From NCBI RefSeq assembly GCF_005952805.1, contig NZ_CP040709.1, positions 2,480,001-2,544,000 on the forward strand: 64,000 bases of DNA, written 5' to 3'. Of this stretch, positions 1 to 20,033 are shown one piece after another (positions within the stretch are counted from its first letter, which is position 1; each line of letters begins with the position of its first letter). The stretch comes from Inhella inkyongensis (GTDB lineage Bacteria; Pseudomonadota; Gammaproteobacteria; Burkholderiales; Burkholderiaceae_C). A model generated the notes under the pieces. That model was not told where the DNA came from. It ran no database searches and saw nothing but the letters and a program-made list of their open reading frames with translations. The translations under genes were made by a program, and so were the position numbers.

Positions 1-1668
1 GACGGCGGTGAACAGGCCCTGCAGGTTGATACCTTCGGACAGGCAGTCGGTGGCGACCAGCACGCGAGTCTCGCCCTCGCCCAACTGTTCGACCGCGGCT
101 TCGCGCTCGTCGGGAGTTAGCTCACCGGTCACTGCCTTGATAGTGGCGGTCTTGAACTTCTCCCGCAGTGCCGCTGCCAGGTAGTGAGCCGTGGCGATGT
201 AGCGGCAGAAGACAACCGGCTGGAAGCCATCCTTCAGCAGCAGCGCCACGTGCTCCTGCAGCTTGGCAAGTTTGGGGTCGTTCTGCTGGCCAGCCAGCGC
301 CGCAGCACTAGTCATCAGCGCTTGCAGGCGTTGGCTGTCTTCGGTCTGGGCCCCGGGCTCGATGTCGTCGGTGGACAGTGCATCGTCGGTGCCGTCCAGC
401 ACGCGGTCGCTGGCCTGGGCCTCGAACTCCTCCAGGGACGTCGCTTCAGCGCCCCCGGCCTCGCCAAGCGCGCCTTGCAGCCGGGTTCGCAGTGCGTTGA
501 CGGCTGCAGCGGGTGACGACGAGATGCAGCGCAGCAGTGCGAGGGCCGCCCACCAATTCATGCGCTGTTCGCGCAGACCTTGGCCTTCAGAGCGCTCGAC
601 TAGTTCACGGGCATAGGCAAGCACGTCGTTGAACAGCTGGCCCCAGGCGCCAGTGAGCTTGTAGGTGATTTCGGCGGACTTGCGGTCCGGAAACATCGAG
701 GTGTCTTGCCACTCGGCGATGTCGGGCCGGCGGCGCTGGACGAAGTGCCGCGAAAGGTCTTCGCGCAGGTCGCTTCGTTGGCCGGCGGGCAGGTCCTTCA
801 GCTGCGTGAAGTCGGTGCGCAGCAGGCCCAGTAGGTTGAAGAACGCCTCCTCGTCGCCGCTGTGCGGCGTGGCGGTGAGCAGCACCAGGTGCCGCGTTGC
901 GTCAGCCGCCAGGCCCTTGAGCAGTTGATAGCGCTGCTGACGGCCCTGGCCGGCTTGGGTACAGGTATGGGCCTCGTCGACGATGACGAACTCGGGGCAG
1001 AAGCGCTGGAAGGCTTCACGGCGGCGCTCTGACTTGATGTAGTCCAGGCTGACGACCGTGTAGGGGTGGGCGTGGAACACAGAAGTGCCCGGCGGAAGGT
1101 CGCGCTCCAGCCGGTCGGCGGTGTTGGAGCGCACCACCACGGCGGGAATGTGAAAGCGCTCGGCCAACTCGCGTTGCCACTGCTCGCATAGGTGCGGCGG
1201 GCACAGCACGGTCATGCGCTGGACCTCGCCACGGTCGAGCAGCTCGCGTGCGATGAGCGCACCTTCGATGGTCTTGCCGATACCGACGTCGTCCGCAATT
1301 AGCAGCCGCACCGTCGGCTGCTTCAACGCCATCAACAGCGGCACGAGCTGGTAGGCACGTGGCTCGACGGCAATGTTGCCGAAGCTGCGGAAGGGGCCAG
1401 CGCCGCTGCGCAGCTTGAGCTGCAGTGCATCCAGGAGCAACTGGCTCGCTGAGTGGTTGCGCGCCTGGGCCACAGAGGGCCAGGGGAAAGTGGCCGGCTG
1501 GACCGGCTGGCGTTCCAGGGGCAAGTAGATGAGCGTCTCATCGCGCTCACCGCCGCCCAAGGGGCGCAGGCGCAGGGTCTGCGTGTCGGACTCGGGCAGG
1601 ACTATCCACTCGCGGCCACGGGCCGCAACCAGGCTGCCCGGGAGGAATTCCGGCGTCGGAGCATTCAT
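1..1668 (-). CDS. SNF2-family helicase/translocase, DrmD/DpdE-like (C-terminus beyond window)
   Basis: The frame is open from an ATG at 1668 to base 1, giving 556 residues with the C-terminus missing. Visible motifs are Walker A DDVGIGKT (residues 126-133), a VLCPPHLCEQW block, DEAH in FVIVDEAHTC (231-234), and LLTATPHSGDEE. The second helicase lobe begins around FQPVVFCRYIATAHYL and includes VLVATDCLSEGINLQ. This is the SNF2/HepA-like architecture used by DISARM DrmD and related defence helicases; DNA translocation or remodelling is inferred. The ATG lies 6 bp after the stop of the 1777-residue helicase, so the two are almost certainly co-transcribed and perhaps co-translated. No good Shine-Dalgarno sequence is seen, which fits coupling. 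A downstream methyltransferase gene, if any, would lie left of the window. Confidence 0.85.
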   Translation of the reverse strand, partial: MNAPTPEFLPGSLVAARGREWIVLPESDTQTLRLRPLGGGERDETLIYLPLERQPVQPATFPWPSVAQARNHSASQLLLDALQLKLRSGAGPFRSFGNIAVEPRAYQLVPLLMALKQPTVRLLIADDVGIGKTIEGALIARELLDRGEVQRMTVLCPPHLCEQWQRELAERFHIPAVVVRSNTADRLERDLPPGTSVFHAHPYTVVSLDYIKSERRREAFQRFCPEFVIVDEAHTCTQAGQGRQQRYQLLKGLAADATRHLVLLTATPHSGDEEAFFNLLGLLRTDFTQLKDLPAGQRSDLREDLSRHFVQRRRPDIAEWQDTSMFPDRKSAEITYKLTGAWGQLFNDVLAYARELVERSEGQGLREQRMNWWAALALLRCISSSPAAAVNALRTRLQGALGEAGGAEATSLEEFEAQASDRVLDGTDDALSTDDIEPGAQTEDSQRLQALMTSAAALAGQQNDPKLAKLQEHVALLLKDGFQPVVFCRYIATAHYLAAALREKFKTATIKAVTGELTPDEREAAVEQLGEGETRVLVATDCLSEGINLQGLFTAV

Positions 1669-1674
1669 GTCGTA

Positions 1675-4600
1675 TCAGGCCTTGCCTGGACCAAACAGGT
1701 CGGCGTTGTTCTTAAAAATGTCGGGCCAGCGAGCCTGCTCCTTGGGGAAGCGCACCACCAGATAGCCCAGTTCGTCCAGGGCTCGGTCGATGGCGGCGTC
1801 CGCAGCCCGCTGGGTGTCGGTCTCGTGATGAGGTCCGTCGATGAAGACAGCGAGATTCAGGTCGTCGTAGAAGAAGTCCGCACAGGCGTTGGCGCCGCTG
1901 ACCGTGTGCTGCCCGCGGTCAGGCTTGCGGTAGCCGTGCTCATTGACGTGGTCCAGCCAGGCCTGCTCCAGCGTGCTGCCTGCGGTGCGGGCGAGCTCGG
2001 CGTCGTGCTCTTGCGGCCCGCGACCTTGCGTGCCCTGGTGAGCCCGGGCAGCCGTCAGGCGGCAGAGGATGTCTAGCAGCAGCCCGCCGGCATCCTTGTC
2101 CTTGCGGTCGATGAGTGTGTGGTCAGGCTGGTTGTAATACGACAGCAAGCAGCGGTAGCAGCCGGCCTCGCACAATGGCTTGCCGTCGTGGTCGAGCTCT
2201 TCGGCCAAGGTCTTGCGGGCCCACGGTTGGCCCGCTGGCGGCGGCAGGAAGTGCAGCACCTCCAAGGCTTTGGCAGCCACCGCAGCCAACGCGTCGGGCT
2301 CGGTGGCCAGGCGCGTCAGCACGCCAGCGCCACCCTCGGCTGCCTCGAACAGCAGGATGGACTGGCGGTTGTCACGCGTGGGCAGGGGCTCGGCCATCAG
2401 CTCGCTCTCTTCGAGCTGGTAGACCGCCTCGATACCGCGTTTGAGCGCGTACTGCAGCGTGGTCAGCGTTTCAGCTGCGAGCTCGCCTAGGCGGTAGTGC
2501 GGGCGCACGATGAGGATGTTCCGGCGGTCCTCGACGTAGGGAACGATGCGCTGCGGCGGTGTTTTGTCCGGCGGGGCCTCGCCCTCAGCCTCTTTCTCGC
2601 CGTTGCCATCGTCGACGCCACCAACCCAGTGGCCGGTGACCGGGTTCATCATGAAGCCCTGGATGGCCTTCTCTTTTCGGCGGCGCCAGCCGAAGTTCAT
2701 GCGCCAGACCGTTGCGGCCGGGCCGTACTGCATCTCGAGCAACGGGCCTTCGTCATCCTCGACGACCGTCGTGACCATTTGCAACTTGCCGTCGGCTTCG
2801 GCGAACTGCAACGTGGTCTGCATCTCGTAGCCCTGGCGTACCCGCTCTTCCTCGTTGGCGGTGATGCGCTCGGCGCGCTTGGTGGAGACGTTCTCGATGC
2901 GGTACAGGTTCTTGATTTCCTGAGCACCGGACAGTGACGCCCCGCAGGAAATGCAGCGGTCCGAGTCGCGCTGTGAGCGGAAGTGGCCATAGCCGCACGC
3001 CGGGCACAGGCGGGCGATTTCAGTGGGCAGGCGAGCGCCTTCGCTGACCTGGTCTGACCCGGTGATGGTCAGCAAAGCCTTGGTCACGCGGTACTGGCTG
3101 CCCTCGTGATAGATGAGGCTGTAGGGGCCAAACTCACCGAGCGCCAGGAAGCGCGGCCGTGACAGAAAGCTCTCACGGCCAATGGCGCCACGCCGAGCCG
3201 GCAGGTAGGCCAGCAACGGCAGGCGCGGGAAGTTATAGCCCGGCAGGAAGCCTTGGCTGGCGAGGTAACGGTAGGTGTAAAAGTCGCTGTTGAAGGCGCT
3301 GTCGCCTGCCAGTAGCAAGTCACGCTGCTTGCGGGCTTCGTTGTGACGCTGCTGGGCCTCACGACGCTCGCGTTCGCTGGCAGCGGGGTTGTTCTCGATT
3401 TTGAAGTTCAGCTCGATAGCCTGTGCCGTGGCGCGGTACAGGTCGCGCCAGCGCTGCAGGGCACCGTCGAACTCTTGGTACGCTCGTTGGAACACAGCTT
3501 CGGCCCACTTGTCCGTGTACCAAGGCGCGCTCGTGGGCGTCAGCTCGTTCGTCAACATGCCTAGCACCTTCAGGCCACGCTGATGCGCGCGCTTTTTCGC
3601 TTCTGACTTGTCCAGGTCCGACGCCATCTCTTCGGTCACCGGCAGCACGTCAGGCTGGTTCATGTCCAGCAGGTCGCGCACGCTGTTGCCCAGGCGCTTG
3701 CTGGTCTCGGCCAGCCAAATGGCGTGCATGTGGCTTTTGACCAGTTCGAGGTTGGCCAGGTCCAGCGTCGGGGCGTTCACCTGTCCGTGCACCATGCGGA
3801 CGGGGTCGCGGAAGTAGTACTGGTCGTGCGGGCTTTGCGATGCGCAGTACGTTATGACCAAGGCCGGCTGGCCGGCACGTCCGGCACGGCCACTGCGCTG
3901 GGCGTAGTTGGCCGGCGTCGGCGGCACGTTGCGCATGTAGACGGTGTTAAGCGACGAGATGTCGACGCCGAGCTCCATCGTCGGGGAGCAGAACAGCACC
4001 GGCAGCCACTCGAGTTCGACGCCGTTCTTGCCGCGCCACTCGGCACGGTCCTTGTCGGTGAAACGGAAACGCGCTTCGCGCTCCATCCGGTCTTCCTGCT
4101 CGACCTGGGCCGTGTGCTCGCGGGCCTCGAACTCGAAGAGTTGGTGCACGGGGCTGTCGAGCAGGCCGGCGATGTTCAGGTACAGGCTGCGGAAGAAGGC
4201 GTTGTCCTCGGCCTGACGCTTGCTCTCGCCAGAGCCGAGCTCCCACTGCAACGCGGTGCCGCTCAGCTGCCACCCCAGCACACCGAAATCCGTCTCCTCG
4301 CGCTTGACCATGCCGTAGGACTCGGCAGCCTTCAGCAGCGCCTGGATGACATCCGGATAGGTCTGGTCGTTGATGTGCTTGTAGTAGGGGTTGCCACCGC
4401 CCCAGGTGCTGCCCTGGCGAAGCAGCCTGCCCAGGCGGGAGCGGCTGGAGCCAATGACCAGGAAGTCTTCGACCACCACCCGACGACCGCGACGGTCAGA
4501 CTCTTCGCGCGGTCGCGAAGTGGCGAACCAACGGGACGGCACTGGGCGTTCGTCTTCGGTGAAGCCCCAGGGCTCGCACAGGTTGGCGTAACTCTGGGTG

Positions 4601-7008
4601 CGAAGCTGCTCGAGTTCGGTGCGGTCGAGGTAGCGCGTGGCGATGCACAGGCCCTGGCGCATGAAGTCGAACAGCTCGCGCAACACCTTCGCGCGCTCGG
4701 CCGGGCTGGCCGCCTGGAGCACCTGCGGGGCCTGGGCCCATTCGGCGGCGTCGGCGGCGAGGTCGTCAATGTCTTGGTAGCCAATGCGAATCAGCCCGAG
4801 CTGTTCGAGGTTGGGATTGTTGAATCGCCAGCCTCGGCGCAAGTCAAAGTAGCTGCGGTAGCCCAGGATGCCGCGCATGGCCTCCTGGACCTGCCGTCGG
4901 GTGTTGCCCTTGACCTCCGGCTGCTGCATGTACTCGGCACGCACGGCGGGGTCATCGCGGTGGAACCCCAGGGCTTCGAAGACCGCGTTGGCGACCTCAC
5001 GCTCGGACAGTGCCCGGCCGCCGGCCTTGCGCACCGCCGACAGCAGTGCCGACCGGGTCAGCAGCACCTGGAGGAAGTCGTTGAAGTGCCCGGCTTGCAG
5101 CGCGGCGTCCTGCCGGTTGTCGGAGAAGCCGAGCACCTTCTTGGCATCGGCCGACAACTCCTGGTCCTGCTCGTACAGGTAGCGCAGGGCCGACAACGTC
5201 AGCATCGTCGTCGCCGAGCTGCGACCCTCGCCAGAAAGCGAAGTCAGGCGCAATGCGTCCTTGCCGGACGTTGTGTGCGACACGCCGCAGGCCAGGCAGA
5301 AGCGGAAGGCGCCCGGGATGAACCAGCTTGGCAGGCCGCTGTCGGTGCTGACAACACCATCAGGTCGCACTTTCACCGACTGGGGAAGGAACTTGCGTTG
5401 GCCAGACTTGATGCGCCACTCGCCATCGGCCCGTTCCTCGAGCCAGGACTCCGGATAGCGCTCCAGTGATTCAGGGTCCCACAGGCCGCGGCCATCCGGC
5501 ATCAGGAAGCCGAACTTGACCTGCTCGTCGTCGTGCTGCCGTTCTTCGATGCTGCGAACGTTAAACGTCCGGCCCTCGTGGCCGTCTGTATCCCAAACCG
5601 GGATGTACTCCTGGCCGCAGTCGCGGCAGAAGTGCACGTGGTAGTAGCGGCGCTGCCGCTCGTCATCGCCCGAGACGAACTGCTGACCGTCGAGCGTGAT
5701 GGCACGATGTCCTGGCGCTTCCAAGGTTGTGAAGACCTTGCCACCGCCAGCGATGAACTGGTGGAGCTTGAACGCGAACAGGCTCTTGCCGGCGGCATCG
5801 GTGACGGCGTAGGCCCGCAACATGAACTGCTGCAGGTAGGCCAGGCAAGTCTCGATAGGCTCGCCGGAGGCATCGTGCAGCAGCATGGCGGCGTCGGCCA
5901 GGGTGCGCGGACGTGCGCGCCGTGGCTTGTCGTCTTCGTAGGTCAGGCCCAGCGTCAACTCGACCCAGACCGACATCGGGTGCGCAGCCAGGGCCTCAAA
6001 GCCAAGGCCGGCGGGAACGCCAGACCGGATAGCGGGGCCGAGGCGGCTGCGGATGGATTCGAGCGTCTGGCTCTCGGGCGTCGTGCGCCGCAGGGTCTCG
6101 GTGATGACGTTGCGGTCGGCGATGGCGGTGCCGAACAGCCGGCGAGCCACTCGTGCGACGACGGCGTTGCGTTCCATCTGGCTGCCCTCGGACGCCATGG
6201 TGGCCGAGGTGCCGATGCAGATGAGCTCGTCGGCCAGCGCTTCGCGCACGCGGCGCACCAGCAGCGCCACATCGGCGCCCTGGCGACCACGGTAGGTATG
6301 AAGTTCATCCAGCACCAGGAAGCGCAAGCCCTTGGCGTTGCGCATCACCGCCTTGTCGATGTCGTTCTGCCGGGTCATCAGCAGCTCGAGCATCATGAAG
6401 TTGGTCAGCAGGATGTCCGGTGGCTTGGCCGCCATGGCTTGCCGCTCTTCGTCCGATTCCTGCCCGGTGTAACGGCCGAAGCTCACAGCGCGGGTTGCAG
6501 GGTCAGAGCCAAGAAACTTCTTCAGCTCCTCGAGTTGGGAGTTCGCCAAGGCGTTCATCGGGTAGATGACGATGGCGCGCGTACGCGGGGTGGGGTCGGC
6601 CTTCTTGGCCTTGAGGCAGGCGTCGACGACCGGAATGAAATAGCTGAGCGATTTGCCGGAGCCCGTGCCGGTGGTGAGAACGTAGCTCTCACCGGCCAAA
6701 GCCAAGCTGATGGCCTCGGCCTGGTGCTTGTGCAGCGGCAGTGTCACCCCGACGGAACTGGCCGACTTACCCAGACGGAAGATGTCCGAGCACTCGGCAC
6801 TCAACTGGCCTGCTTGGACCAGCTCATCGACCGTGCCCCCCGAACGGTAGTTCGGGTTGATTTGGATGAGTGGCTCTGGCCAGTAGCGCTGGCTGTCGTA
6901 CTCGCGGTCGACGAAGGCCCGAATGTCATCGGACCGGATGCGTGTGAAGCTGCGGGTGAACTGCTCGTACTCGCCGACGAGGTGCTCCCGGAATTCAAAG
7001 ACGTCCAT
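1675..7008 (-). CDS. Giant DEAD-like helicase with DUF1998 (MZB) region and DUF559-like nuclease-like C-terminus
   Basis: The product is 1777 residues from the ATG at 7008, chosen because AGGAG lies just upstream; a TTG at 7041 is less likely. Lobe 1 has TGTGSGKS (113-120), the DEAD-like LVLDELHTYRGRQG (DELH 234-237) and TSAT (267-270). Lobe 2 has MELGVDISSLN and QRSGRAGRAGQ. Cysteine pairs HFCRDCG, FCLACG, LCPACG and CISCG, plus the late CEAGCYRCLLSYYN, mark zinc binding and the DUF1998/MZB region known from MrfA, DrmB and DpdJ-type proteins. The tail (TLEQAWLDHV, ADFFYDDLNL, then VFIDGPHH, D1711 and D1724) follows the DUF559/Vsr-like PD-(D/E)xK layout, with F where that family usually has an acidic residue before IDG. 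It probably unwinds and possibly cleaves invading DNA; nuclease activity is inferred. An RHH gene lies 47 bp upstream and a SNF2 helicase 6 bp downstream. Confidence 0.87.
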   Translation of the reverse strand: MDVFEFREHLVGEYEQFTRSFTRIRSDDIRAFVDREYDSQRYWPEPLIQINPNYRSGGTVDELVQAGQLSAECSDIFRLGKSASSVGVTLPLHKHQAEAISLALAGESYVLTTGTGSGKSLSYFIPVVDACLKAKKADPTPRTRAIVIYPMNALANSQLEELKKFLGSDPATRAVSFGRYTGQESDEERQAMAAKPPDILLTNFMMLELLMTRQNDIDKAVMRNAKGLRFLVLDELHTYRGRQGADVALLVRRVREALADELICIGTSATMASEGSQMERNAVVARVARRLFGTAIADRNVITETLRRTTPESQTLESIRSRLGPAIRSGVPAGLGFEALAAHPMSVWVELTLGLTYEDDKPRRARPRTLADAAMLLHDASGEPIETCLAYLQQFMLRAYAVTDAAGKSLFAFKLHQFIAGGGKVFTTLEAPGHRAITLDGQQFVSGDDERQRRYYHVHFCRDCGQEYIPVWDTDGHEGRTFNVRSIEERQHDDEQVKFGFLMPDGRGLWDPESLERYPESWLEERADGEWRIKSGQRKFLPQSVKVRPDGVVSTDSGLPSWFIPGAFRFCLACGVSHTTSGKDALRLTSLSGEGRSSATTMLTLSALRYLYEQDQELSADAKKVLGFSDNRQDAALQAGHFNDFLQVLLTRSALLSAVRKAGGRALSEREVANAVFEALGFHRDDPAVRAEYMQQPEVKGNTRRQVQEAMRGILGYRSYFDLRRGWRFNNPNLEQLGLIRIGYQDIDDLAADAAEWAQAPQVLQAASPAERAKVLRELFDFMRQGLCIATRYLDRTELEQLRTQSYANLCEPWGFTEDERPVPSRWFATSRPREESDRRGRRVVVEDFLVIGSSRSRLGRLLRQGSTWGGGNPYYKHINDQTYPDVIQALLKAAESYGMVKREETDFGVLGWQLSGTALQWELGSGESKRQAEDNAFFRSLYLNIAGLLDSPVHQLFEFEAREHTAQVEQEDRMEREARFRFTDKDRAEWRGKNGVELEWLPVLFCSPTMELGVDISSLNTVYMRNVPPTPANYAQRSGRAGRAGQPALVITYCASQSPHDQYYFRDPVRMVHGQVNAPTLDLANLELVKSHMHAIWLAETSKRLGNSVRDLLDMNQPDVLPVTEEMASDLDKSEAKKRAHQRGLKVLGMLTNELTPTSAPWYTDKWAEAVFQRAYQEFDGALQRWRDLYRATAQAIELNFKIENNPAASERERREAQQRHNEARKQRDLLLAGDSAFNSDFYTYRYLASQGFLPGYNFPRLPLLAYLPARRGAIGRESFLSRPRFLALGEFGPYSLIYHEGSQYRVTKALLTITGSDQVSEGARLPTEIARLCPACGYGHFRSQRDSDRCISCGASLSGAQEIKNLYRIENVSTKRAERITANEEERVRQGYEMQTTLQFAEADGKLQMVTTVVEDDEGPLLEMQYGPAATVWRMNFGWRRRKEKAIQGFMMNPVTGHWVGGVDDGNGEKEAEGEAPPDKTPPQRIVPYVEDRRNILIVRPHYRLGELAAETLTTLQYALKRGIEAVYQLEESELMAEPLPTRDNRQSILLFEAAEGGAGVLTRLATEPDALAAVAAKALEVLHFLPPPAGQPWARKTLAEELDHDGKPLCEAGCYRCLLSYYNQPDHTLIDRKDKDAGGLLLDILCRLTAARAHQGTQGRGPQEHDAELARTAGSTLEQAWLDHVNEHGYRKPDRGQHTVSGANACADFFYDDLNLAVFIDGPHHETDTQRAADAAIDRALDELGYLVVRFPKEQARWPDIFKNNADLFGPGKA

Positions 7009-7055
7009 GCTTCTACTCCTCCCTGCCGATCTCGATGCCAACCTCTCTGGTCGGT

Positions 7056-7256
7056 CTAAGTCGATCGATTTGCCTTACTCGCTTTATCCACCGCCTGCAA
7101 TCCGGGAGCTATGCCACGGCTCTTGCAGTAATCCAGCACCATGAACTCGACCATGGAGGCCAAGCTGCGGCGTTCGTGCTCCGCCGCAGCGACCAAGGCC
7201 GCTTTCACGTCGGGCGGAACGCGGACGCTTACGACTTCGGTTTTGGTGACGGCCAA
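7056..7256 (-). CDS. Ribbon-helix-helix (Arc/CopG-like) DNA-binding protein
   Basis: This is a 66-residue protein starting at TTG 7256, preceded by AGGAG (7262-7266 on the complement) with 5-nt spacing. Residues from VVSVRVPPDVK through SLASMVEFMVLDYC fit the beta-strand, helix, helix pattern of RHH repressors and antitoxins (alternating residues in the strand, then two amphipathic helices). The C-terminal tail is basic and polar. It is the first gene of the minus-strand helicase operon, 47 bp before the helicase start. A perfect 16-bp palindrome lies 16 bp upstream of its start codon, so it is most likely an autoregulator of the helicase operon. No toxin gene is adjacent, so a classical toxin-antitoxin role is less likely. 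Confidence 0.75.
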   Translation of the reverse strand: MAVTKTEVVSVRVPPDVKAALVAAAEHERRSLASMVEFMVLDYCKSRGIAPGLQAVDKASKANRST

Positions 7257-7801: not shown

Positions 7802-8017
7802 ACAAGATTGGAGAAAGCAGGGCGCTTTCCGGGGTGACATCTGGAATTTAGCTCTGGTTTCGCCACGGGTCAACTTTTCCCTGGAGAAACTAGATATGCG
7901 CCACACCAGATCAGCGCAGGGGCGTTGCTACGCCGAAAAAGGCCGGTCCGCCTGCCGCCGGCGCGCGAAGGGCAGCGCCGACGAGACGACGACCGCGTCG
8001 CACGAGGTGGCTTCGCC

Positions 8018-10699
8018 ATGCTGACCGACGACGAGCTGGCCGAGCTGTTTGACCGGCTCGCTATGCCAGCGGCTGGTCGCGAGTACATCCGGCGGGTCCG
8101 TGCGGAACCGCCATCGCGCGCAACCAGCACCAACAAGTGCTCAGGCAAGCTGCGCTACACACCGCTCAAGATGCCCTTCGTGGTGGAAGCAGAGGCCGAG
8201 AGCACTGAGTACGTGACCCTCGTCGACATGGACCACGACGAGACCACGCTGGAGTTCTACGGTCAGCCCCCAAAACTGAAGATCTTCTACCTGCTTCCGG
8301 ACGGACGTCGCAAGACATCGGTCTACACGACGCCAGACTACCTGCGCATCACGGCGGATTGCTTCGAGTTCATAGAGTGCAAGCGTGAAGAAGAACTGCA
8401 GCGCTTGGCCCAAAAGATGCCAGGGCGCTACCAGCAGGAGGCTGACGGCACGTGGCGGTCTCGACCTGCCGAAGCTGCTGCGCAAGCCCTCGGCTGCTCG
8501 TTCAAGGTCCGATCCAGCGCACAAAACAACTGGGCTCGCCACGAGAACCTCGAACTGCTCAAGGACTACTTCCTGCAGCAGCCCTCCTCCACCAGGTGCG
8601 CGGCCACTGCTGAGCTGCTGGACCGACTCGCCGGGCAGTGCCGCCTGTGCCTCTTCGACCTAATTCATCTGGAGCCAGCAATTCCGGCGGACGCCATCTA
8701 CTTGGCCATCGCGCGCCGGCAGGTCTTCTTCCCAATCGACACCCAGCGGCTCACTGACCAAGAGCGTGCGTACGTCTACCGCGACGAGACGGCCTTCACA
8801 GCATTTCAGTCATTCCTTCCCTGCGCCACGCCGGCGACCGCCCTGCCAGCCCTTGCAGTAGAGCTCGTGCCCGAGACCAAGTTCCTGTGGGACGGGGTGC
8901 CATGGAAGATCGTCAACGCTGGAGAGACCAGGTTCACCGTCCGATGCCTCGACACCAAGGCACGAGATCAACTGGGAGAACTCTCGCCCACAGAATTTGA
9001 CGCACTGGTTCGGGCAAGGAAGATCTTCGTTGTGTCCGCGAACGAGTTGCTTGAAGCCGTGGACCTTGGTGTCGAGCTTCTGAAGAACGCATCGAAGAGC
9101 GAACTGCAGGAGGGCATCTGGAGGCTTGAGGTCCTAGAGGGCCGAGCCAACATCGAGAACAACCCGCTGGCAAAGCGAAGTACGCGGGCCGTCAAGTACT
9201 GGAAGGCGGCCTTCCGTGAGGCCGAAGCGCTCTACGGCAATGGACTTGCCGGCCTGATCCCGCGACGCAGCGGCAACCGGACGCCAAAGGCATCACACAG
9301 AGCGCTCACGCTGGCGGAGGAGCACATCCACGCCAACTTCGCAACGATCCGGGCGAAGAACCGCATCACGGTCTGGGGTCACTACTGCTTAGCCGCCTCT
9401 GCAGAAGGTGCTCCGCCAGTGTCGTACGAGTGGTTCTGCCGCATGGTGAAGAAGCATTCGGGCCATGCTCAAACGGCAGCTCGGCTTGGGGAGAAGGCGG
9501 CATATGACGAAGAGCCCCACTACCTACAACTGGAATGGACGACACCCAGGCATGGCGTTCGCCCCTGGCACATCGGGCACATCGACCACACACCCATACC
9601 GCTGAAGTTTGTCCACAGCGAGCTGGGCAAGATCGTCGACACGATCTGGCTCACGATCTTGATTGACGGCAACACCCGGAAGGTTCTTGCCTACTACTTG
9701 AGCTTCGACGAACCCAGCTATCGGTCTTGCATGATGGTCATGCGGGACTGCGTCCGACGTCACGGACGCGTCCATCAAAAGCTAGTCGTGGACCAGGGCT
9801 CAGAGTTCAAGGGCGTCTACTTTGAAAAGCTAGTGGCCTCGCTCGGCATCGACAAGCGCGAACGCCGCGCCGGAAAACCCCGAGAGGGCAGTGTCTGCGA
9901 GCGCATCTTCAACACCTCCCAAGAGCAGTTCATCAAGCGGCTGATGGGCAGCACAGAGGTGGTGGAGAACTACTTTAGGCGCGTGAGCCCCGAGGTCGAG
10001 CCCACCCGACACGCGGTCTGGACGATGGATCGATTTGACGAGGGGTTCCAGGCGTATCTGGATGAGGTCTACCACGTCAACCATCACACCGGCCTGGACA
10101 TGTCGCCAAACGAGGCCTGGGCACTGGGCCTCAGATCCCACGGGCAGCGCAAGCACCGCGTCATCCCGTACGACGAGAAGTTCCTGATGGAGAGTTGCCC
10201 CGAAGTGCACAGGGGCCATGCCAAGGTCTGCCCGGCGGGCATCAAGGTGAACTACCGCTGGTTCAGAAGCCCAGTTTTCAATCAACCTGGCGTCCAGGGC
10301 ACATCCGTCCGTGCTCGATACGACCCCTTCAACTGCGGCGTCGCCTATGCGTGTGTCAATGGCTCCTGGCATGCATGCTATTCAGAGCACTTCGCCGTCT
10401 TCTCGATGCTGACGGAGCGTGCTGTTCAGCGAGCCACGGAACAGATCAGGCTAACTGACCGGATCAGCGGACGAAAAGCGCGGCTGAATGCCGCGCGAAT
10501 TGCCGCCTTCCTCTCAGAAAGAGAACTTGAGGAAGACGTCGCGCGACAAGCCCGCAACGATTTGGAGGCTCAAAACCACAGGGCAAAGCTGACCGATTCG
10601 CGGCAGCAGACACCTCCGGCTCCAAAGCCTGGCCCTGTGCCAGCACCTGATTGCAAGTCGACCTCTGCCTTTCAACCCCGCATCCTGGAGGACCTATGA
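8018..10699 (+). CDS. tnsAB: Natural TnsA-TnsB fusion transposase
   Basis: The product is 893 residues from the ATG at 8018, preceded by GAGGTGG; an upstream TTG at 7925 would add 31 basic residues unlike TnsA. The N-terminal ~230 residues match TnsA endonuclease: AESTEY (E61), LEFYGQP, TTPDYL (D107) and IECK (E120, K122) form a PD-(D/E)xK site that would make the 5' cuts. The rest is a TnsB/Mu-type DDE integrase: HIDHTP (D523), VDQGSEF (D592) and SVCERIFNT (E628), a D-D35-E arrangement, plus a C-terminal barrel and a charged tail expected to contact TnsC. Tn7 encodes these as two proteins; fusions are known in some Tn7-like and CAST elements. It overlaps tnsC by ATGA. Confidence 0.88.
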   Translation: MLTDDELAELFDRLAMPAAGREYIRRVRAEPPSRATSTNKCSGKLRYTPLKMPFVVEAEAESTEYVTLVDMDHDETTLEFYGQPPKLKIFYLLPDGRRKTSVYTTPDYLRITADCFEFIECKREEELQRLAQKMPGRYQQEADGTWRSRPAEAAAQALGCSFKVRSSAQNNWARHENLELLKDYFLQQPSSTRCAATAELLDRLAGQCRLCLFDLIHLEPAIPADAIYLAIARRQVFFPIDTQRLTDQERAYVYRDETAFTAFQSFLPCATPATALPALAVELVPETKFLWDGVPWKIVNAGETRFTVRCLDTKARDQLGELSPTEFDALVRARKIFVVSANELLEAVDLGVELLKNASKSELQEGIWRLEVLEGRANIENNPLAKRSTRAVKYWKAAFREAEALYGNGLAGLIPRRSGNRTPKASHRALTLAEEHIHANFATIRAKNRITVWGHYCLAASAEGAPPVSYEWFCRMVKKHSGHAQTAARLGEKAAYDEEPHYLQLEWTTPRHGVRPWHIGHIDHTPIPLKFVHSELGKIVDTIWLTILIDGNTRKVLAYYLSFDEPSYRSCMMVMRDCVRRHGRVHQKLVVDQGSEFKGVYFEKLVASLGIDKRERRAGKPREGSVCERIFNTSQEQFIKRLMGSTEVVENYFRRVSPEVEPTRHAVWTMDRFDEGFQAYLDEVYHVNHHTGLDMSPNEAWALGLRSHGQRKHRVIPYDEKFLMESCPEVHRGHAKVCPAGIKVNYRWFRSPVFNQPGVQGTSVRARYDPFNCGVAYACVNGSWHACYSEHFAVFSMLTERAVQRATEQIRLTDRISGRKARLNAARIAAFLSERELEEDVARQARNDLEAQNHRAKLTDSRQQTPPAPKPGPVPAPDCKSTSAFQPRILEDL

Positions 10700-11877
10700 A
10701 CGACTCCCACCTCGACCCCCGGATCAATAGGTTTCGCGAAAAGATCGTCAAGCACGACCAGCTGGAGGATGTTCTGGATCACGTCATTCGCCTCGTCACG
10801 AGCCCCAGACCGGAAACCGTTGCTGCACTCGTGGGCCCAAGTGGGGTGGGGAAGAGCACCATCATTCGGGCCGTGCAGCGGCATCTTTGTGCCTTGCACG
10901 CCGAGCGCATGGAGCGGGACCCAGGCTTTTTGCCATATCTGTCATTCAAGGCCACGTCTCCGCTGGACGGTAACTTCAGCTGGGGCGACTTCTTCACCCG
11001 AGCCCTTGTAAAGGCCAACGAGGCGCTGGTTCGGAAGAAGTTCATCCCCCAAATGCAGGTGGAACTCGACGGATCCACGGTGAACTCGGCACGGGGCCTT
11101 ATCCCCCAGGAGCTCAGGCGAAGCTTCGAAAGCTTGATCGAAAGTCGTGACGTTCAGGTCATGATCATTGAAGAGGCCAGCGCCCTACTACGCATCAAGA
11201 AGAGCGGCATACCCATCTTGCAGTTCGAGGTGCTGAAATCACTTGCAGTGCAGCTCCGGAAGCCAATCCTTTTGATCGGCGCCTACGACCTCCTCGGTAT
11301 CCTGGATGGCGGAGGCCAGCTACTGCGGCGGTCGGACGTCGTCCATTTCCCGCGCTACAAGCTCGATGCTGGCGCATCCTTGATGACAGGTGCCCAAGGC
11401 CAGGCGCCGCAGGCATTCGTCAACGTTCTGCATACGTTTCTCGAAGCCATTCCTATCGAGAAGGAGGCAGATCTCATTCAGCATGCCGACTACTTCTTGG
11501 CACGGTCAGTAGGTTGCGTGGGCGTCCTCAAAGACTGGCTGGACCGAGCCCTCGTTTCTGTCCTCTCAAAGCCGGGGGCACCGGTCTTGACGAGAGCTGC
11601 CATCAAGGAGGCGGCGCTTCTGAACGGCACTGTTCTGCAACTCACTGAAGAAGCGAAAGCTGGGGAAGCCCGCTTGCTGCAGTGCTCGGACGACGAGCTC
11701 GCGAGGCAGCTCGGCCTCGACAGCATGCCCGCACTTGACGCGCCCTTTCCGCCCCAAACTACCGAGGAGAAAGAGAAGCCCCAAAAGCGTGGCAAATCGA
11801 GCAAGGTCGGCAACCGGGGACCAAGTCGAGATGCAGTGCGTACAGCCTCCGACCCGGCCCCGTCAACGTCCGCGTGA
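10696..11877 (+). CDS. tnsC: TnsC/TniB-type AAA+ transposition regulator
   Basis: The product is 393 residues. The ATG at 10696 overlaps the tnsAB stop (ATGA) and has GGAGG just upstream, so the longer upstream frame is ignored. Walker A is GPSGVGKS (residues 47-54) and the Walker B-like strand is VMIIEEASAL (E159-E160). The length and sequence fit the MuB/TnsC/TniB family, which forms ATP-dependent filaments on target DNA, receives the target choice from TniQ/TnsD and activates TnsA/TnsB. The C-terminal ~40 residues are lysine-rich (EEKEKPQKRGKSSK) and probably contact DNA or a partner. Confidence 0.87.
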   Translation: MNDSHLDPRINRFREKIVKHDQLEDVLDHVIRLVTSPRPETVAALVGPSGVGKSTIIRAVQRHLCALHAERMERDPGFLPYLSFKATSPLDGNFSWGDFFTRALVKANEALVRKKFIPQMQVELDGSTVNSARGLIPQELRRSFESLIESRDVQVMIIEEASALLRIKKSGIPILQFEVLKSLAVQLRKPILLIGAYDLLGILDGGGQLLRRSDVVHFPRYKLDAGASLMTGAQGQAPQAFVNVLHTFLEAIPIEKEADLIQHADYFLARSVGCVGVLKDWLDRALVSVLSKPGAPVLTRAAIKEAALLNGTVLQLTEEAKAGEARLLQCSDDELARQLGLDSMPALDAPFPPQTTEEKEKPQKRGKSSKVGNRGPSRDAVRTASDPAPSTSA

Positions 11878-11890
11878 GGGGAGCGCTGCC

Positions 11891-13297
11891 GTGAGAAATT
11901 GTCCCGATCTCTTTGAGGCTGATGAAGCACAGGATCTTCCGCCAAGAAGCGCGTTGTACCGCCTTGAGCCCGCCGATGCGGGAACCGCGTTGCACGAATC
12001 CTTGCTGAGCTACCTGCATCGACTTGCGGCGAGACACTGCCTCCGCGTCCGCGACTTGATGACAGAGTTCGTGTTGCCGCGCACCGGAATTTGTGAAGTC
12101 AGCTGCGGTCATCGTTTCTCCACAGACTACGCCAAAACGATCAACGGCTTCGGCAAGTACGCGATCGAGGTCTCTGCCGCCCTCAACGCGCTGACGGGGC
12201 GTGATGATCTGCAACGCTGCACGTTCATTCCCTGGCGAGACCTGCTCGACCCAAAAGGCGGAGGGCTGCTGGAGCATTCGATGCGCTGGTGCCCGAGTTG
12301 CCTGGCACAGAACATCGACCGCTCAGAACCGTGCGTGTATCCGCTTCTGTGGTCCTGTCGGAGCGTCAGTCACTGCCCCGTGCACGCCTCGGCCCTTGTG
12401 AACGAGTGCTTGCGTTGCGGCCGCCTCCAGCGAGTCCTTTCGGATAGCAACGCCTACGGAAGATGTTGGGCGTGCAGCGGAAGCCTCGGAGCACGCACCG
12501 GCCTGTGGGAAGAGTCAGAGCCGACGCCGCGACAGCTCTTCGATGCCGATGCCGTCTCCAAGATGATCGCGACGGGGGCCGTGGCCCCCGAGTTTGCGAC
12601 TATCGGCCGCTTCTCTCAGAACCTTCAACAGCTCTGCGAACTGCACGGTTGCAAGTCAGGGGCCGAGTTCGCACGACGCCTCCACATGGACTTTGACACC
12701 ATGCGCGACTGGCTGGCTCGGGGTATGCGGCCAACACTCACCAGCTTCCTGGAGGTCGCGTTTCGACTGAACCTCGATCCAGTTCACCTCTTGTCCGAGC
12801 CGCCGTCGACCAGCCCACCATCCTTACGGACCGGCGCAACGCCGAGAACTCGGAAGTTCCACCGGCTGTCCCGGGAGGACATGGACCGACTGATGGCTGA
12901 AATGGCCGCCTCGCTGGATGTGTCGGATCGCTATTTGGACGCAACCGACCTTGCCGGGAAGTTCGGGACCAGCGTGGCCTACATCCGATATCAGTGTGGC
13001 GACCTTTACAGGGCGTTCGCTGCTCATCGAACCGAGGTCATGGCCGACCTCAGTCGAAAGCGACTAGACGCTCTCCTGCACCAGACTGAGAGCGTTGTTC
13101 GCGCCCTCGTCACCCAAAACACGGTGCCGACGCGCCGAGGGATCTACCGTGCTCTTGAGGCCGAAGGTATCACGATGAAGGACCCGCGCATTCGCAAGAA
13201 AGCCTTCGAGACAGCAGCTGCGATTCGGCAGACAGCGAGGCCTGCGGACCTGAAAACAACGTCTTCCGCCGCCCAGCCCCTGGGGACTATTGGTTGA
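11891..13297 (+). CDS. tniQ: TniQ/TnsD-family target-selection protein
   Basis: The product is 468 residues from GTG 11891, with GAGGGGAG 7 nt upstream and 13 bp after the tnsC stop; an upstream ATG at 11831 lacks this. The start of the domain (ALYRLEPADAGTALHESLLS, then YLHRLAARH) is typical TniQ. Zinc-ribbon cysteines follow: WCPSC (C134, C137), CPVHASALVNECLRCG and RCWACSG. A later HTH-like stretch (DTMRDWLARGMRPTLTSFLE) and a C-terminal helical region resemble the DNA-binding part of TnsD-like proteins. It should choose the target and recruit TnsC. The length is nearer TnsD (about 500) than the minimal TniQ of CRISPR-guided elements, supporting DNA-sequence rather than RNA targeting; this is inference. 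Confidence 0.85.
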   Translation: MRNCPDLFEADEAQDLPPRSALYRLEPADAGTALHESLLSYLHRLAARHCLRVRDLMTEFVLPRTGICEVSCGHRFSTDYAKTINGFGKYAIEVSAALNALTGRDDLQRCTFIPWRDLLDPKGGGLLEHSMRWCPSCLAQNIDRSEPCVYPLLWSCRSVSHCPVHASALVNECLRCGRLQRVLSDSNAYGRCWACSGSLGARTGLWEESEPTPRQLFDADAVSKMIATGAVAPEFATIGRFSQNLQQLCELHGCKSGAEFARRLHMDFDTMRDWLARGMRPTLTSFLEVAFRLNLDPVHLLSEPPSTSPPSLRTGATPRTRKFHRLSREDMDRLMAEMAASLDVSDRYLDATDLAGKFGTSVAYIRYQCGDLYRAFAAHRTEVMADLSRKRLDALLHQTESVVRALVTQNTVPTRRGIYRALEAEGITMKDPRIRKKAFETAAAIRQTARPADLKTTSSAAQPLGTIG

Positions 13298-13788
13298 CGG
13301 GTCTGCGCCGATTGACTCAAGAAGGCGGCACTCACCGAGCGACGCTCTGTTTTCGGGACAAAGAGCCGCTTGAGCGCACTCAAGGCCACGAGTCTGTTTG
13401 TGGACTCCGGGCTCATCAGTTGCGCGTCCTGGTGATGATCGGATCAGTCTGGGTGCTGTCGTTCGTCGTCAATGCTACGAGTGGCGGCTTTGACCGGCAT
13501 CGGTCATTGCTCACGAAGGCGCCGACCGGCCGTTGTTCACGCATCGCCGATCATTCACAGGCGGAAGCGGTGCGTGGACGGCTGCTATTGGCGGAGCCGA
13601 CTTGCTCAATTCGACGCAACGAGGACGCGCGCGGCTAGGAAAAGCGCCCGTCGGTCAAGCCCCAAACCGTTGACGCACCGAAAGCTCTTCTACCCTTCTG
13701 ACCGCTGGCAGTCTTCAAGGATTTGGCTGGCCGCTGACGTCTAGTACGCTGGCGAGAACGACTGTTGATTCATAGGTAAGGACAAGAC
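13298..13788 (+). other. Intergenic region with short degenerate repeats
   Basis: About 490 bp between tniQ and the nSTAND gene, with no credible gene. Three related motifs occur in direct orientation: CGGTCATTGCTCACG (13501-13515), GGCCGTTGTTCACG (13528-13541) and CCGATCATTCACAG (13547-13560). They may be transposase sites left from an internal end or a widespread intergenic repeat. TAAGGA precedes the GTG start at 13789. Confidence 0.5.
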
Positions 13789-16700
13789 GTGAGCAACAAG
13801 AATGCCAAAGCGCCAAGCATGAGGAAAGCCGGCTCCGGCAGTCATTCGATGACCGGTTATGAGTATCAGATCGACGTCTCCGTCTGGTTGGCGCTTGACC
13901 TGGTGCTGTCGAGTGAGTTCGCAAAGGAGGTTGTCCTCGAGCCGGCCTCAGAGGAGGACATCGAAGCAGATCTTGCCGAAACCGAGCCTGGGCGTGTGGT
14001 GACGACCGCCATGGTCGAACAGTACCGACTAATAGTTCAGGCAAAGCTCCGCAGCGGCGACGCTTGGTCTGTCGCTGGGGTGAAAGGGCTGCTCGAGCAC
14101 GGAACAAACCGTCCTTCGGCCGCGAGCCGCTTGGCGGATCCGCGAAATCGATACCTACTGGTGACCTCCGCTGCTGTGAATGGAGGCGCCCGCGGCTTAC
14201 AGGTTCGCAGCGCGGGGCTTTGGCCAAAGGCCATCGATATGGCCGTCTCCATCAAGGATGCGATGCCCGCGGGTTCAGCTGGGCGGGTGGCAATCGTCGG
14301 GAACCAGGATTTCGAGCGGCTCGAGCGCGACATCAAGGCCTTACTCTCGGAGAAGCTACGCGTGCCGAACGCGAAATTGGAAGAGTGCCGCCGGAAGCTC
14401 CGGGACGAAGCCCGGGCCCGCATGGGTGGGGCGGGTGGCGGTCGCTGGACGCGCGCGGAGCTTGAGGAAGTCATCCGTGCTCACGACGGCTACATCGCCA
14501 GTTCTCCTGAGCTCGAGCACTACATAAAGCCAATCAACTGGGGAGAGATCAAAGCGGCAATGCTCGAGCGCAATGCGGCGTTGATCATTGGCCAGTCGGG
14601 CACCGGAAAAACCATGGCCACACTGAAGCTCTACGACGAGCTTCGCAAGGACATTCCAGGGCTTACAAGGGTTCCCATCAAGTTCGGACCTGAACAGATC
14701 AGGGACGACAGGACGCCACCGCCAGTTTTGTATGACATCGAGGACCCATGGGGGCGCTACGACTTCGATCCAAGAAGTCGCCCATGGAACGATCAGCTCG
14801 CCCAGCACTTCGCGCACGCCCGGCCCGATCGGCTGGTCGTTGCAACCTCGCGTTTGGACGTCGCCAGAAGCTCCGGCGCGCTACAAACGGTCAAGCGTTG
14901 GGAAGTGAGCCTTGAGGCCGAGCATTACGGCGTGCGCGAGCGTCAACGCCTCTACCGTACCCGCATCAGCAATCTGCCGCGCAACGTCCAGACGCTGGTT
15001 AAAGAAAACGAGGCGGTCGTGCTGGCTGAGCTTGCAACGCCGCTCGAAATCCAGAAGTTCTTCGACGCGATGGCCACACCTGCGGACAGGGAAAGGCGCT
15101 CAGACTCCCAGTTGATCACCGACGCAATTCAGCGCGCCCACCAGGACTCCATTGAACGGACGGTGGTAGACCAAATTGAGGAGCGCGAAGATGTCCGCGC
15201 CGCAGCCGTGCTATGGGGGCTGCTGAAGGCCAATGACAAGGTGGCGCTACAGCTATTGCGCCAGATCGACGGTGCACTTGCCGACGCGCACGAAGCCTTT
15301 GAAAAGGGAGCGATGCCGCTGGTCAATTTCTTCGTCGCTGCGCGGAACCTGCGCCAGTCCGAGGGCACGGTGTCTTACTATCATCCGCGGGTTGAGGCCG
15401 GGATTGAACAGGCGCTGAAGAGGGCGGAGAACGTTACGGTCAAGTCGCTGCGGCTTTTGATTGAGACGCTCTCTTCGTCGAATGGACCCGACGAGTCGTG
15501 GGGCATTGCCGCGTCGGCCAGGTTGCTCTATGCACTGGATAGGACGCCAGAGCTGCGGCCCAAGCCCTCGTCTGAGGTTCAGGCAAAGATTGATACGTGG
15601 CTGGTCGGCGCGGTCTGCGAGGGTGGCAAGGAGTTCGAACGGAACCTCAGACTTGCTGAGGCAGTCGGATCCAGCACCTGCAATATCGCGGAGGTGGCAC
15701 GCTTTCTTCTGCACCGGCCCGACCGAAGTTTTGGGGGGCACATGACCTGGGGAGAACCCAGCCACCCGGAGGCCTGGTATGAACGTATGCGGGCAGACGC
15801 CTCGGTCAGGATGGTCGTTGAGACTTTCATCCGTGACATGCTACCCCATGGCCGCGATGACTTCCGCGCAGACTTCGTGGCGGCGATCGAGCGCGTGGCC
15901 CCTAACTTGACGCCTGCGTTCCTTGATGCAGCCTCTACGGCGGTGTACTTCGGGTACATCAGCTCGGAGGACGCCATTTCGACAGGCGCGCTGAGGGATC
16001 TTCAGGGGTTCGAGGCGATTGTGGACCTAGCTGTGGCAGAGCTCACCCCGAGCGAGGCAGAGCTGCGGCGGGCTGAGGAGTTTTCGCTCGGTGTCAAGAA
16101 CAAGGAGTTCAACGAGGACTACGTCCAGTACTACTCTGACGATGACAGCGGCTGGACTGCCGGCGAGTTTCTTTCTAGCTACATCGACAAGGTACGTGCA
16201 ACATCGGGGTACCAACTTCTACTTAAGCACCGACATCGCGATCAACTGCTTCCGCGCTGGCTGAATCGCCTTGCTGGGGACGTGCCGGTGCCCGCCGACG
16301 AGCTGAGGGACGTTTATCGGGTCGCACGCCACGGAGACGGCGAGGGCACACTTTGGATCGTCTTGACCAAACATTGGCTACCGGAGGTCGAACAGGATCT
16401 TGTGGATCTGGTATTCACAGGCCATCAAGACCCCGGTGTTCGGATCAGCGCACTAACTTGCTTGGTTGAAAACGCGGCTGCTCGCTTTCCTGGCGTGATT
16501 GACCAGTTGGTCCGGGAGAGCAAAGAGGCCCGATTGGTCGAGATTGCGGTGGAACTTGGCGACCTGCGCGACCGGCGCGATGTCTCCGAGAAGCTTCACA
16601 AGGAAAGCGCAGCGCCCTGGACTGCTCCATCGCTCTTGAGCCCGTTCGACGAAGTCAGCGAGGCCGCCTATGCGCTCGAGAAGAAGCAAGTGCCGGTTCT

Positions 16701-18508: not shown

Positions 18509-18930
18509 TTCTAGATCACCTTGCTGGATGCAGCGCGAGAACGGGCGGAACCTCGTGTCCGCGAGGCCTACGCAGATGCTACGCGGGTTATGGACTTCTG
18601 CACGCATCCAACTGTCAGGCTCGCGGACGGCCGCGTCCCGCCTTTCAATCGCCCGGCCGGACGTGCCGGGCGCTGGTTCCCCATGCAGCTCACCACGCTG
18701 GCCCGAGCCTTGAGGTAGTTCGCCTGAGCGGCAACTGGTGGATCGCCAACCGGCCGCACGATGCGAACGACAAAGTGCAAGGGCAGCCAAAGCCTTTGTG
18801 CAAAGTGCAGCGCGTTGATTCACCTAACAGACGGGGCCGCATGCAAATCTCGGCAGCAGATCTGGCCTTCGCGGGCCAGAAGTGCAATCCGTTGCTGCAC
18901 CGTCAGTGCAACTTGATGCTCCATGTCGCA
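18509..18930. other. Gene-poor island/core junction
   Basis: About 420 bp between the small basic protein and the terminator before truD. No convincing ORF and no tRNA cloverleaf were seen. CAAAGTGCA occurs twice around 18770-18810, forming a short direct repeat. Confidence 0.4.
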
Positions 18931-18963
18931 GGCTTGGCTTCGCGCCAGGCCCTTTTTGTTTTG
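18931..18963 (+). terminator. Rho-independent terminator with no identified upstream gene
   Basis: GGCTTGGC (18931-18938) pairs with GCCAGGCC (18944-18951), allowing one G-U pair, around a TTCGC loop and followed by CTTTTTGTTTT. The plus strand upstream holds no convincing gene, so it probably terminated a transcript now lost, or an unrecognised small RNA. Confidence 0.65.
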
Positions 18964-19010
18964 CGCCTCGAGCGCTCGGCTCTTTCTGTCGCCATTGCCA
19001 CATCTTCCTC

Positions 19011-20033
19011 ATGACCGAAGCTCTCTACACCAGCCTTCCGCAGTGGCCCAAGGCCTATCCAGACAGTGGCGCCAGCGGCCGGCTGAAGGTCCTGAACGAG
19101 GACTTCCAGGTAACGGAACTGCCTTTGCAGTTGCCCTCCGGGGCTGGCGAGCACCTTTGGCTGGATGTTGAGAAGAACGGCGCCAACACCGCCTTTGTCG
19201 CGCAGCAGCTGGCCGAGGCGGCCGGGGTGAAGGACTGGGATGTGGGCTATGCCGGACTGAAGGACCGCTACGCCGTGACTCGGCAGTGGTTCAGCATCTA
19301 TCTGCCCACCGGCAAGGCCGGCGAGACGCCCGACCTGACGCAGCTGCAACACCCGGAATTCAAGGTCCTGAGCCAAAGCCGGCATGTCAAGAAGCTACGC
19401 CCCGGCGATCTGCAGGGCAACCGCTTTCGCATCGTGCTGCGGGATGTCGCTGGCGAGCGCGCAGCGATCGAGGCCAATTTGCAGGCCGTGGCCTCAAGGG
19501 GCGCCCCCAACTATTTCGGCGCACAGCGATTCGGCTTTGACGGCGGCAACGTCGAGCAAGGCCGGGCCATGCTGGCGCGCGAGATTCGCGTGCGCAACCC
19601 GAAGAAAAAGGGCATCTATCTCTCAGCGGTGCGCTCCTTTGTCTTCAATGAAGTGCTGGCGCTGCGAATTCAGCAAGGACTCTGGGGCAAGCCCCTACCA
19701 GGTGACGTGATGGACGCTGCAGGCCGGCCCACCGGCCCCTTGTGGGGTCGCGGCCGGGTGACGAGCACCGACCAAGCGCAGGCCCTGGAGAACAGCGTGG
19801 CCGAGCGGCACGCCGTCCTGTGCGATGGACTGGAGCACGCCGGTCTGGACCAGGAGCGACGCCCCCTGGTGGCCTCTGCGGTGGACATGACCTGGGAGTG
19901 GCCGCAGGCTGACCAGTTGGTGCTCAGCTTTTCCCTGCCTGCGGGCACGTACGCAACGGCTTTGCTGAGCGAAATCCTGCAGACCACCGAGCCGGAGCGA
20001 CAGGCCGAAGGCGACCCTCCAGCGCTTGAATGA
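19011..20033 (+). CDS. truD: tRNA pseudouridine(13) synthase TruD
   Basis: The product is 340 residues, about the E. coli length. It converts U13 of tRNA-Glu to pseudouridine. The TruD signature GYAGLKDRYAVTRQWFS is present, with catalytic Asp at D85. Further conserved blocks are NYFGAQRFG and the late LPAGTYATALLSE. The frame is open upstream, but the ATG at 19011 begins a normal TruD N-terminus (MTEALYTSLPQWPKAY). It is the first core gene to the right of the accessory island, lies 48 bp after an intrinsic terminator, and ends at a bidirectional terminator. Confidence 0.95.
   Translation: MTEALYTSLPQWPKAYPDSGASGRLKVLNEDFQVTELPLQLPSGAGEHLWLDVEKNGANTAFVAQQLAEAAGVKDWDVGYAGLKDRYAVTRQWFSIYLPTGKAGETPDLTQLQHPEFKVLSQSRHVKKLRPGDLQGNRFRIVLRDVAGERAAIEANLQAVASRGAPNYFGAQRFGFDGGNVEQGRAMLAREIRVRNPKKKGIYLSAVRSFVFNEVLALRIQQGLWGKPLPGDVMDAAGRPTGPLWGRGRVTSTDQAQALENSVAERHAVLCDGLEHAGLDQERRPLVASAVDMTWEWPQADQLVLSFSLPAGTYATALLSEILQTTEPERQAEGDPPALE

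Follow-up and report, generated by a model that had tools for sequence, protein, structure and literature searches.

A probable ARMADA Type I anti-phage operon of Inhella inkyongensis, from a modular lineage pairing an SMC-like ATPase with a methyltransferase extension

What kind of system is encoded by the helicase operon that crosses the left edge of a 64,000-nucleotide stretch of the Inhella inkyongensis genome (NZ_CP040709.1, positions 2,480,001 to 2,544,000; hereafter the window)? The initial annotation of the window had described an RHH gene, a 1777-residue helicase and a SNF2 helicase as one minus-strand operon with gaps of 47 and 6 bp, and had proposed a compact or undescribed two-helicase defence system. 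Open reading frames (ORFs) confirmed the arrangement and the gaps, but the operon is not compact. The window starts at base 2480001 of a single-contig genome of 4.08 Mb, and about 12 kb of the operon lies to its left, where the SNF2 gene is followed by five further co-directional genes, namely a methyltransferase (MTase) gene and four more. The genes left of base 1, which had been singled out for a search for a methyltransferase or a PLD protein, do include the former, while no PLD gene was found in the operon. Altogether, eight tightly spaced genes lie on the same strand in the order RHH, YprA/MZB helicase, SNF2 helicase, PglX/DrmMI-like MTase, SMC-like ATPase, HEPN-RES, GmrSD and HNH endonuclease (Table 1), with 9, 14 and 6 bp successively separating the MTase, SMC, HEPN-RES and GmrSD genes. 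Judging from these genes and their relatives, the operon probably encodes an ARMADA Type I anti-phage system that belongs to a modular sub-lineage.

The main text of Bell et al. (2025, PMC12458937) describes ARMADA Type I as generally made up of a YprA helicase, then a BrxHII-like helicase and then a PglX-like MTase, the C-terminus of the YprA helicase carrying a Vsr-type nuclease that is predicted to be active; the experiments described in the available text concern Type II only. The same order is found here, with a DUF559 match covering five candidate residues at the end of the first helicase, and the helicase-helicase-MTase core thus appears to fit the definition of a class already described, rather than an undescribed two-helicase system. 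Gene order, the MZB and Vsr-type C-terminal domains of the helicase and conserved CxxC motifs are all shared with Type I.

Pfam searches of the large helicase returned DEAD, Helicase_C, MZB and DUF559 domains (the last at 21.4 bits for a cut-off of 20.6), bearing out the earlier reading of helicase parts, DUF1998/MZB and a nuclease-like tail fused in one protein. The Vsr-type candidate set is complete (E1692, D1722, D1735, H1738 and H1739), and we presume a catalytic role for these residues from the motif. Walker A and B and motifs V and VI are near-invariant across 68 YprA sequences, with 100% conservation of three MZB cysteines and of the CxxC cysteines that lie between helicase motifs III and V. 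Type I helicases are also characterised by a BrxA-like insert behind RecA1 and a Zn beta-barrel within RecA2. The SNF2 protein matched SNF2-rel_dom and Helicase_C in Pfam and DpdE (713 bits), DrmD (300 bits) and BrxHII (207 bits) in PADLOC, in agreement with the earlier view that the motors are DISARM-related. For the MTase, Eco57I/N6_Mtase was found in Pfam, and DrmMI (211 bits), type IIG (117 bits) and PglX (38.5 bits) in PADLOC. Its residues 1-700 are 85-93% identical to those of 11 close kin, against only 48-61% for residues 1200-1490, which might be the target-recognition region. Compared with proteins of E. coli ATCC 8739 (L141), the best segment of the helicase reached 132 bits with ArmC and 102 bits with DruE, whereas a Nocardioides Type I-like helicase reached 1181 bits (41%) and a Nocardioides DrmA 36 bits. 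The Nocardioides homologue falls inside the group of this helicase, which leaves out the ArmC and DruE proteins of E. coli, both on very long branches.

Relatives were obtained from an MTase scan of 84,980 genomes, one a species, and the best 79 of 158 were kept as loci and annotated with the proteins of this operon; ORF calling was mechanical, and contig ends account for some missing genes. The MTase was present in all 79 loci, SNF2 in 75 (two as fragments only), YprA in 71, HNH in 57, the SMC-like gene in 34, GmrSD in 15 and RHH in 7. The YprA, SNF2 and MTase genes occur together in 71 of the 79 loci, spread over several phyla, and always in this order on one strand (71/71), so that their grouping is not due to chance. 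Seven of the eight loci without YprA end at a contig edge; L077 does not. Of the RHH-helicase-SNF2 order whose conservation the initial annotation had named as supporting evidence, the two-helicase part is conserved and the RHH part is not. Although an RHH gene comes first in the operon studied here, a homologue lies upstream in only 7 of 62 relatives (six directly before YprA, one farther off), and RHH was rejected as a conserved leader or a general part of the system. These seven are a different set from the seven among the 79 loci, where one match (L050) lies downstream. The RHH protein matched RHH_5 at 22.2 bits, below the Pfam cut-off of 26 (E 1.1e-4), and is a probable autoregulator.

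The two helicases might alternatively be housekeeping DNA repair proteins, of the MrfA/YprA repair branch and the RapA type, and not defence proteins. RapA is a transcription factor. A repair branch does exist within the YprA family, as stated in the main text of PMC12458937. However, the best profiles for the operon are DruE, DpdE, DrmD and DrmMI, its neighbours are defence genes, and its distribution is patchy, with the MTase detected (E ≤ 1e-100) in 7 of 369 genomes of the class, its own included, and no match to the helicase above 21 bits in five other genomes of the genus. A repair role is accordingly very improbable, and the defence role suggested at the outset remains likely.

Other defence systems share parts of this gene set. 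DISARM class 1 also combines a SNF2 protein, a YprA-type helicase and a DrmMI-type MTase, but here MZB/DUF1998 is fused to the helicase with no separate DrmB, and the eight-gene operon has no DrmC PLD gene. Druantia was rejected since the best PADLOC model for the YprA helicase, DruE1 (309 bits), is a partial match, with no DruH or DruA-D partner among the operon genes scanned; Dpd was likewise set aside, for DpdE is the best model for the SNF2 protein, but no 7-deazaguanine gene was found among these genes. The available text of PMC12839542 gives a helicase, an MTase and an ATPase as the theme of the BREX-related Hma/DUF499 systems, whereas our ATPase is LmuB-like without a Pfam DUF499 match and is accompanied by a YprA helicase. 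ARMADA Type II of E. coli ATCC 8739 comprises the same three core families in the order SNF2-MTase-YprA-UvrD, while YprA precedes SNF2 and MTase here; no UvrD, the RelE-UvrD/GajB-like last gene of Type II, was seen among the genes of this operon, and ArmC aligns to our helicase in parts only (24-35%).

The published Type I also differs from the present lineage, in which an HNH gene is common, a variable cargo slot is found, about half of the loci combine an LmuB-like ATPase with an extension of the MTase, and half of the sampled relatives have lost the Vsr residues. The terms SMC, ABC and Lamassu are absent from the main text of PMC12458937, where HNH occurs in the reference list only. From that main text and a literature term search that returned this paper alone, our impression is that these additional parts have not been published; the HNH end gene, the variable slot, the SMC-extension pairing and the loss of Vsr residues seem to be new.

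The pairing of the SMC-like ATPase with a C-terminal extension of the MTase is strict. All HNH and SMC matches above 50 bits in the 79 loci lie downstream of the MTase and on its strand, and the SMC-like ORF starts no more than 200 bp from the MTase end in all 34 loci that have it. A hidden Markov model (HMM) of MTase residues 1510-1669, which we call the extension, matched 34/34 SMC-bearing loci and 0/38 others among the 72 loci in which over 1.5 kb of sequence follows the MTase (L063, L073, L090, L102, L103, L105 and L117 were left out), and none of the six MTase search patterns falls inside the extension. Since extension-bearing members of the same set had served to build the HMM, an out-of-sample check matters. 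The rule held in all four loci from outside the 79-locus sample that could be judged: L126 (G015) has both the SMC gene and the extension (97 bits), while L127 (G205), L136 (an Acidithiobacillus caldus plasmid) and L137 (a Nocardioides plasmid) have neither. MTases without the extension mostly end no more than about 25 residues after GEYRTRRLVLEAWD, a motif they share, the exceptions being tails of up to about 50 residues in L063 and L109, and L102, which leaves its contig. A split by MTase length (at least 1560 residues) had given 24 long and 9 short MTases with the SMC gene, and 1 long and 32 short without; it was replaced by the alignment and HMM, since some of the MTases are split or are short in other parts.

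The pairing has also been kept through repeated change. On a SNF2 tree of 73 rows (a quick IQ-TREE run with SH-aLRT support only and some long branches), SMC and extension were scored in 69 rows and changed at least 16 times, with agreement in 16/16 independent pairs (sign p 3e-5). The L059 MTase has a body like that of L053, yet its extension and SMC protein are 66% and 81% identical to those of this operon, against 33% and 51% to those of L053, which indicates on these identities a swap of the extension and SMC cassette at the extension boundary. The L047 MTase is itself a mosaic, its first 600 residues matching L070 at 88-100% identity in windows of 60 residues and the rest nearer to our MTase. 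Since the extension and the SMC gene adjoin, a single event can move both, and their joint changes therefore point to a module, not to physical contact. A tie between the SMC ATPase and the state of the Vsr residues was considered and rejected (15/32 versus 18/30, p 0.32; Vsr never differs in 15 independent pairs).

What, then, is the SMC-like protein? That of our operon matched the LmuB profile of PADLOC at 25.6 bits and no Pfam family, DUF499 included, while relatives reached E 2e-13 and 2e-8 with LmuB and E 9e-4, below the Pfam cut-off, with DUF2326. In a fold comparison of the L044 protein, the best matches were YydD and LmuB of Lamassu, so that SMC-like ATPase fold and size (about 660 residues) are shared with YydD and with LmuB of Lamassu/ABC-3C. 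The place of the Walker B glutamate is never occupied by Glu in 35 SMC sequences (C in 23, S in 10, G in 1 and a gap in 1), suggesting a switch rather than a motor. The MTase extension is predicted to fold as a winged helix. Its sequence gave chance-like matches only against solved structures (best E 0.006) and no LmuC match in PADLOC, one member reaching E 0.047 with a CARF model; LmuC was not among the fold matches listed, which excludes nothing.

Lamassu consists of the LmuA effector, the LmuC middle component and LmuB in the available text of PMC10586767, and the SMC gene and MTase extension could be a built-in second system of this type, with the extension acting as LmuC and a downstream nuclease as LmuA in an abortive infection independent of the helicases. 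While the fold, the size, the missing Walker B glutamate and the winged helix would all suit such a system, the ATPase sits in an MTase operon, no separate LmuA or LmuC gene was matched among the operon proteins, and the extension that would serve as the middle component belongs to the same polypeptide as the ARMADA MTase, as would be expected of a single machine. We hold an independent Lamassu-type system to be improbable.

The operon ends with the HNH gene (HNH_2), which is present in 51 of the 57 loci where over 8 kb of sequence follows the MTase and missing from L044, L058, L059, L074, L079 and L116. Only five matches (E ≤ 1e-10) were found in 93 other genomes of the class, and this rarity rules out chance linkage. 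Outside the sample, however, one of four loci has the gene: L136 does (294 bits), whereas no HNH was found in L137, in L126 (9.4 kb after the SMC gene) or in L127 (3.4 kb). This result slightly weakens our interpretation, as HNH had to be rejected as a part of all ARMADA I and, going by these loci, marks only part of the class.

The helicase nuclease, for its part, varies among the relatives. Of 67 relatives, 33 keep the Vsr-type E-D-D-H-H set (at least four of five residues) and 34 have lost it. The SNF2 tree shows one change of this state, and the predicted active nuclease of the published Type I thus does not appear to extend to half of the sampled relatives. Compensation of the lost residues by HNH seemed plausible at first, but the difference was not significant (28/30 versus 21/26, p 0.23). 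Being common in both the Vsr-kept and the Vsr-lost group, HNH is a candidate cutter within the sample.

Between the MTase or SMC gene and HNH lies a slot of variable content. HNH follows directly in 18 of the 57 HNH-bearing loci, while at least one ORF of at least 80 codons precedes it in 39, including a co-directional ORF of at least 150 codons in 37. Two sets of 10 and 56 were scanned out of 111 slot ORFs in total, the other 45 consisting mostly of GmrSD and other cluster mates, of ORFs on the minus strand and of short ORFs. The first 10 included a reverse transcriptase, RNA ligase, kinase-helicase and SIR2 proteins; the 56 gave five PADLOC matches to Drt1a and three each to HEC-01A, AbiLi and HEC-05, along with single Pfam cases that include McrBC, Fic and DUF7380. 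The HEC models of PADLOC stand for genes embedded in Hma loci. These matches indicate that the slot holds defence-type cargo, which in our operon consists of HEPN-RES (HEPN_RES_NTD1 plus RES) and GmrSD (GmrSD_N). One recurrent cargo pairs an AAA_15/DUF3696 ATPase with an RNA ligase, usually with a small unknown protein (L049, L066, L068, L082, L084, L086 and L106).

Such cargo raises the alternative of a plain three-gene ARMADA I, behind which SMC, HEPN-RES, GmrSD and HNH merely accumulate in a defence island. HEPN-RES and GmrSD are clearly variable, the SMC gene is missing from about half of the loci, and HNH from 6 of 57 sample loci and three of four others. Against accumulation, HNH is rare in background genomes, and the SMC gene, which always starts close to the MTase end, tracks the extension; moreover, the SMC family was found (E ≤ 1e-20) in 2 of 369 genomes in the class survey, adjoining an ARMADA MTase in both. 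We find this alternative rather unlikely, though better placed than an independent Lamassu-type system.

In the preferred interpretation of a modular ARMADA Type I system, the SNF2 and YprA helicases would translocate along invading or replicating phage DNA, and the PglX-like MTase would read a site and mark host DNA, allowing self to be told from non-self by methylation. The LmuB-like ATPase may sense DNA structure and dock, as a switch, on the MTase via the winged-helix extension, and a non-self verdict would license cutting by the Vsr-type domain of YprA and/or the HNH nuclease. HEPN-RES and GmrSD would be exchangeable cargo adding independent defences, with the RHH protein regulating its own operon. 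More tentatively, and with a chance we put slightly short of even, this could be a chimeric machine in which a Lamassu-type sensor is plugged into the MTase via the winged-helix domain, so that one complex reads both methylation and DNA structure ahead of any action by the two helicases and by one or two nucleases, the sensor and its domain travelling as one cassette.

Table 1. Coordinates of the operon and of the adjoining tRNA gene (C1, genome contig; window positions count from its first base)
Feature	Position	Strand	Basis or remark
RHH ORF, 66 aa, first operon gene	window 7056..7256	minus	RHH_5
YprA-family helicase, 1777 aa from ATG at 7008	window 1675..7008	minus	ORF, Pfam and motifs
Helicase ORF open to TTG at 7041, 1788 aa	window 1675..7041	minus	ORF list
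Helicase RecA1 (DEAD) domain, residues 105-284	window 6190..6729	minus	Pfam
Helicase_C part of RecA2, residues 970-1057	window 3871..4134	minus	Pfam
MZB (DUF1998) zinc-binding domain, residues 1529-1632	window 2146..2457	minus	Pfam
Helicase C-terminal DUF559/Vsr-type nuclease domain	window 1714..1989	minus	Pfam and residue motif
SNF2/RapA (BrxHII-like) helicase, N-terminal 556 of 949 aa	window 1..1668, on to C1:2478819	minus	
Full SNF2 gene, 949 aa	L004:6819-9668		ends C1:2478819
MTase, 1669 aa from first ATG	C1:2473841-2478850	operon strand	
SMC-like ATPase, 664 aa	C1:2471837-2473831	operon strand	
HEPN-RES, 398 aa	C1:2470626-2471822	operon strand	
GmrSD, 587 aa	C1:2468856-2470619	operon strand	
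HNH, 240 aa from likely ATG	C1:2468137-2468859	operon strand	4 bp overlap with GmrSD
tRNA-Ala(CGC) gene beyond HNH	C1:2467919-2467994		

The flanks of the operon contain further genes. TniA/TnsB-like, TniB and TniQ genes (window 7925-13297, plus strand) lie about 670 bp from the RHH gene and are divergent from the operon. TniA is single-copy in the genome, which left no second copy for locating the transposon ends; with no element ends found, this neighbour adds little to the case for defence that had been built partly on it. After TniQ (window 13294-17766, plus strand) come a 114-codon ORF and an nSTAND3-like protein of 1325 residues (25.5 bits, below the cut-off), which had no PADLOC match and is possibly an undescribed STAND defence gene. 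TruD (window 18882-20033, plus strand) has a second match in the genome at C1:378929, 85% identical, while five genus mates have one each. On the other side, the tRNA-Ala(CGC) gene is followed by chromosomal genes for rubrerythrin, a CCG-domain protein, DNA polymerase III alpha and patatin. No copy of the tRNA-Ala 3' end was found within the window at up to three mismatches, and the only inverted matches between the island edges were one of 12 bases and one of 10 bases. A comparison of the rubrerythrin side with four relatives placed tRNA-Ala(CGC) within 2.7 kb of rubrerythrin in two (L122 and L124); the right flank is unmatched in these four, and we therefore claim no empty site.

Relatives of the operon are also found on plasmids. 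On the conjugative Nocardioides plasmid pNOCA01 (L137), YprA-SNF2-MTase is followed by McrB-like and McrC genes, with a drmA-drmB pair upstream. In the ARMADA I operon of the Acidithiobacillus caldus SM-1 megaplasmid (L136), YprA is separated from SNF2 by an IS21 pair, and SNF2 from the MTase by a Phd/VapC pair. Plasmid records of Deinococcus, 16 in number, also contain YprA relatives, which align in two to five pieces among the matches listed.

Taken together, these results propose a more complete set of components for one Type I lineage of ARMADA, a class reported in 2025. The residues of the predicted cutter are missing from half of the helicases sampled, and HNH is offered as a candidate cutter in the lineage. 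The pairing of ATPase and extension provides a testable case of an SMC-like defence sensor seemingly wired into a methylation-based system, and modular exchange of MTase parts, the sensor cassette and the contents of the cargo slot would go some way to account for the diversification of these systems.
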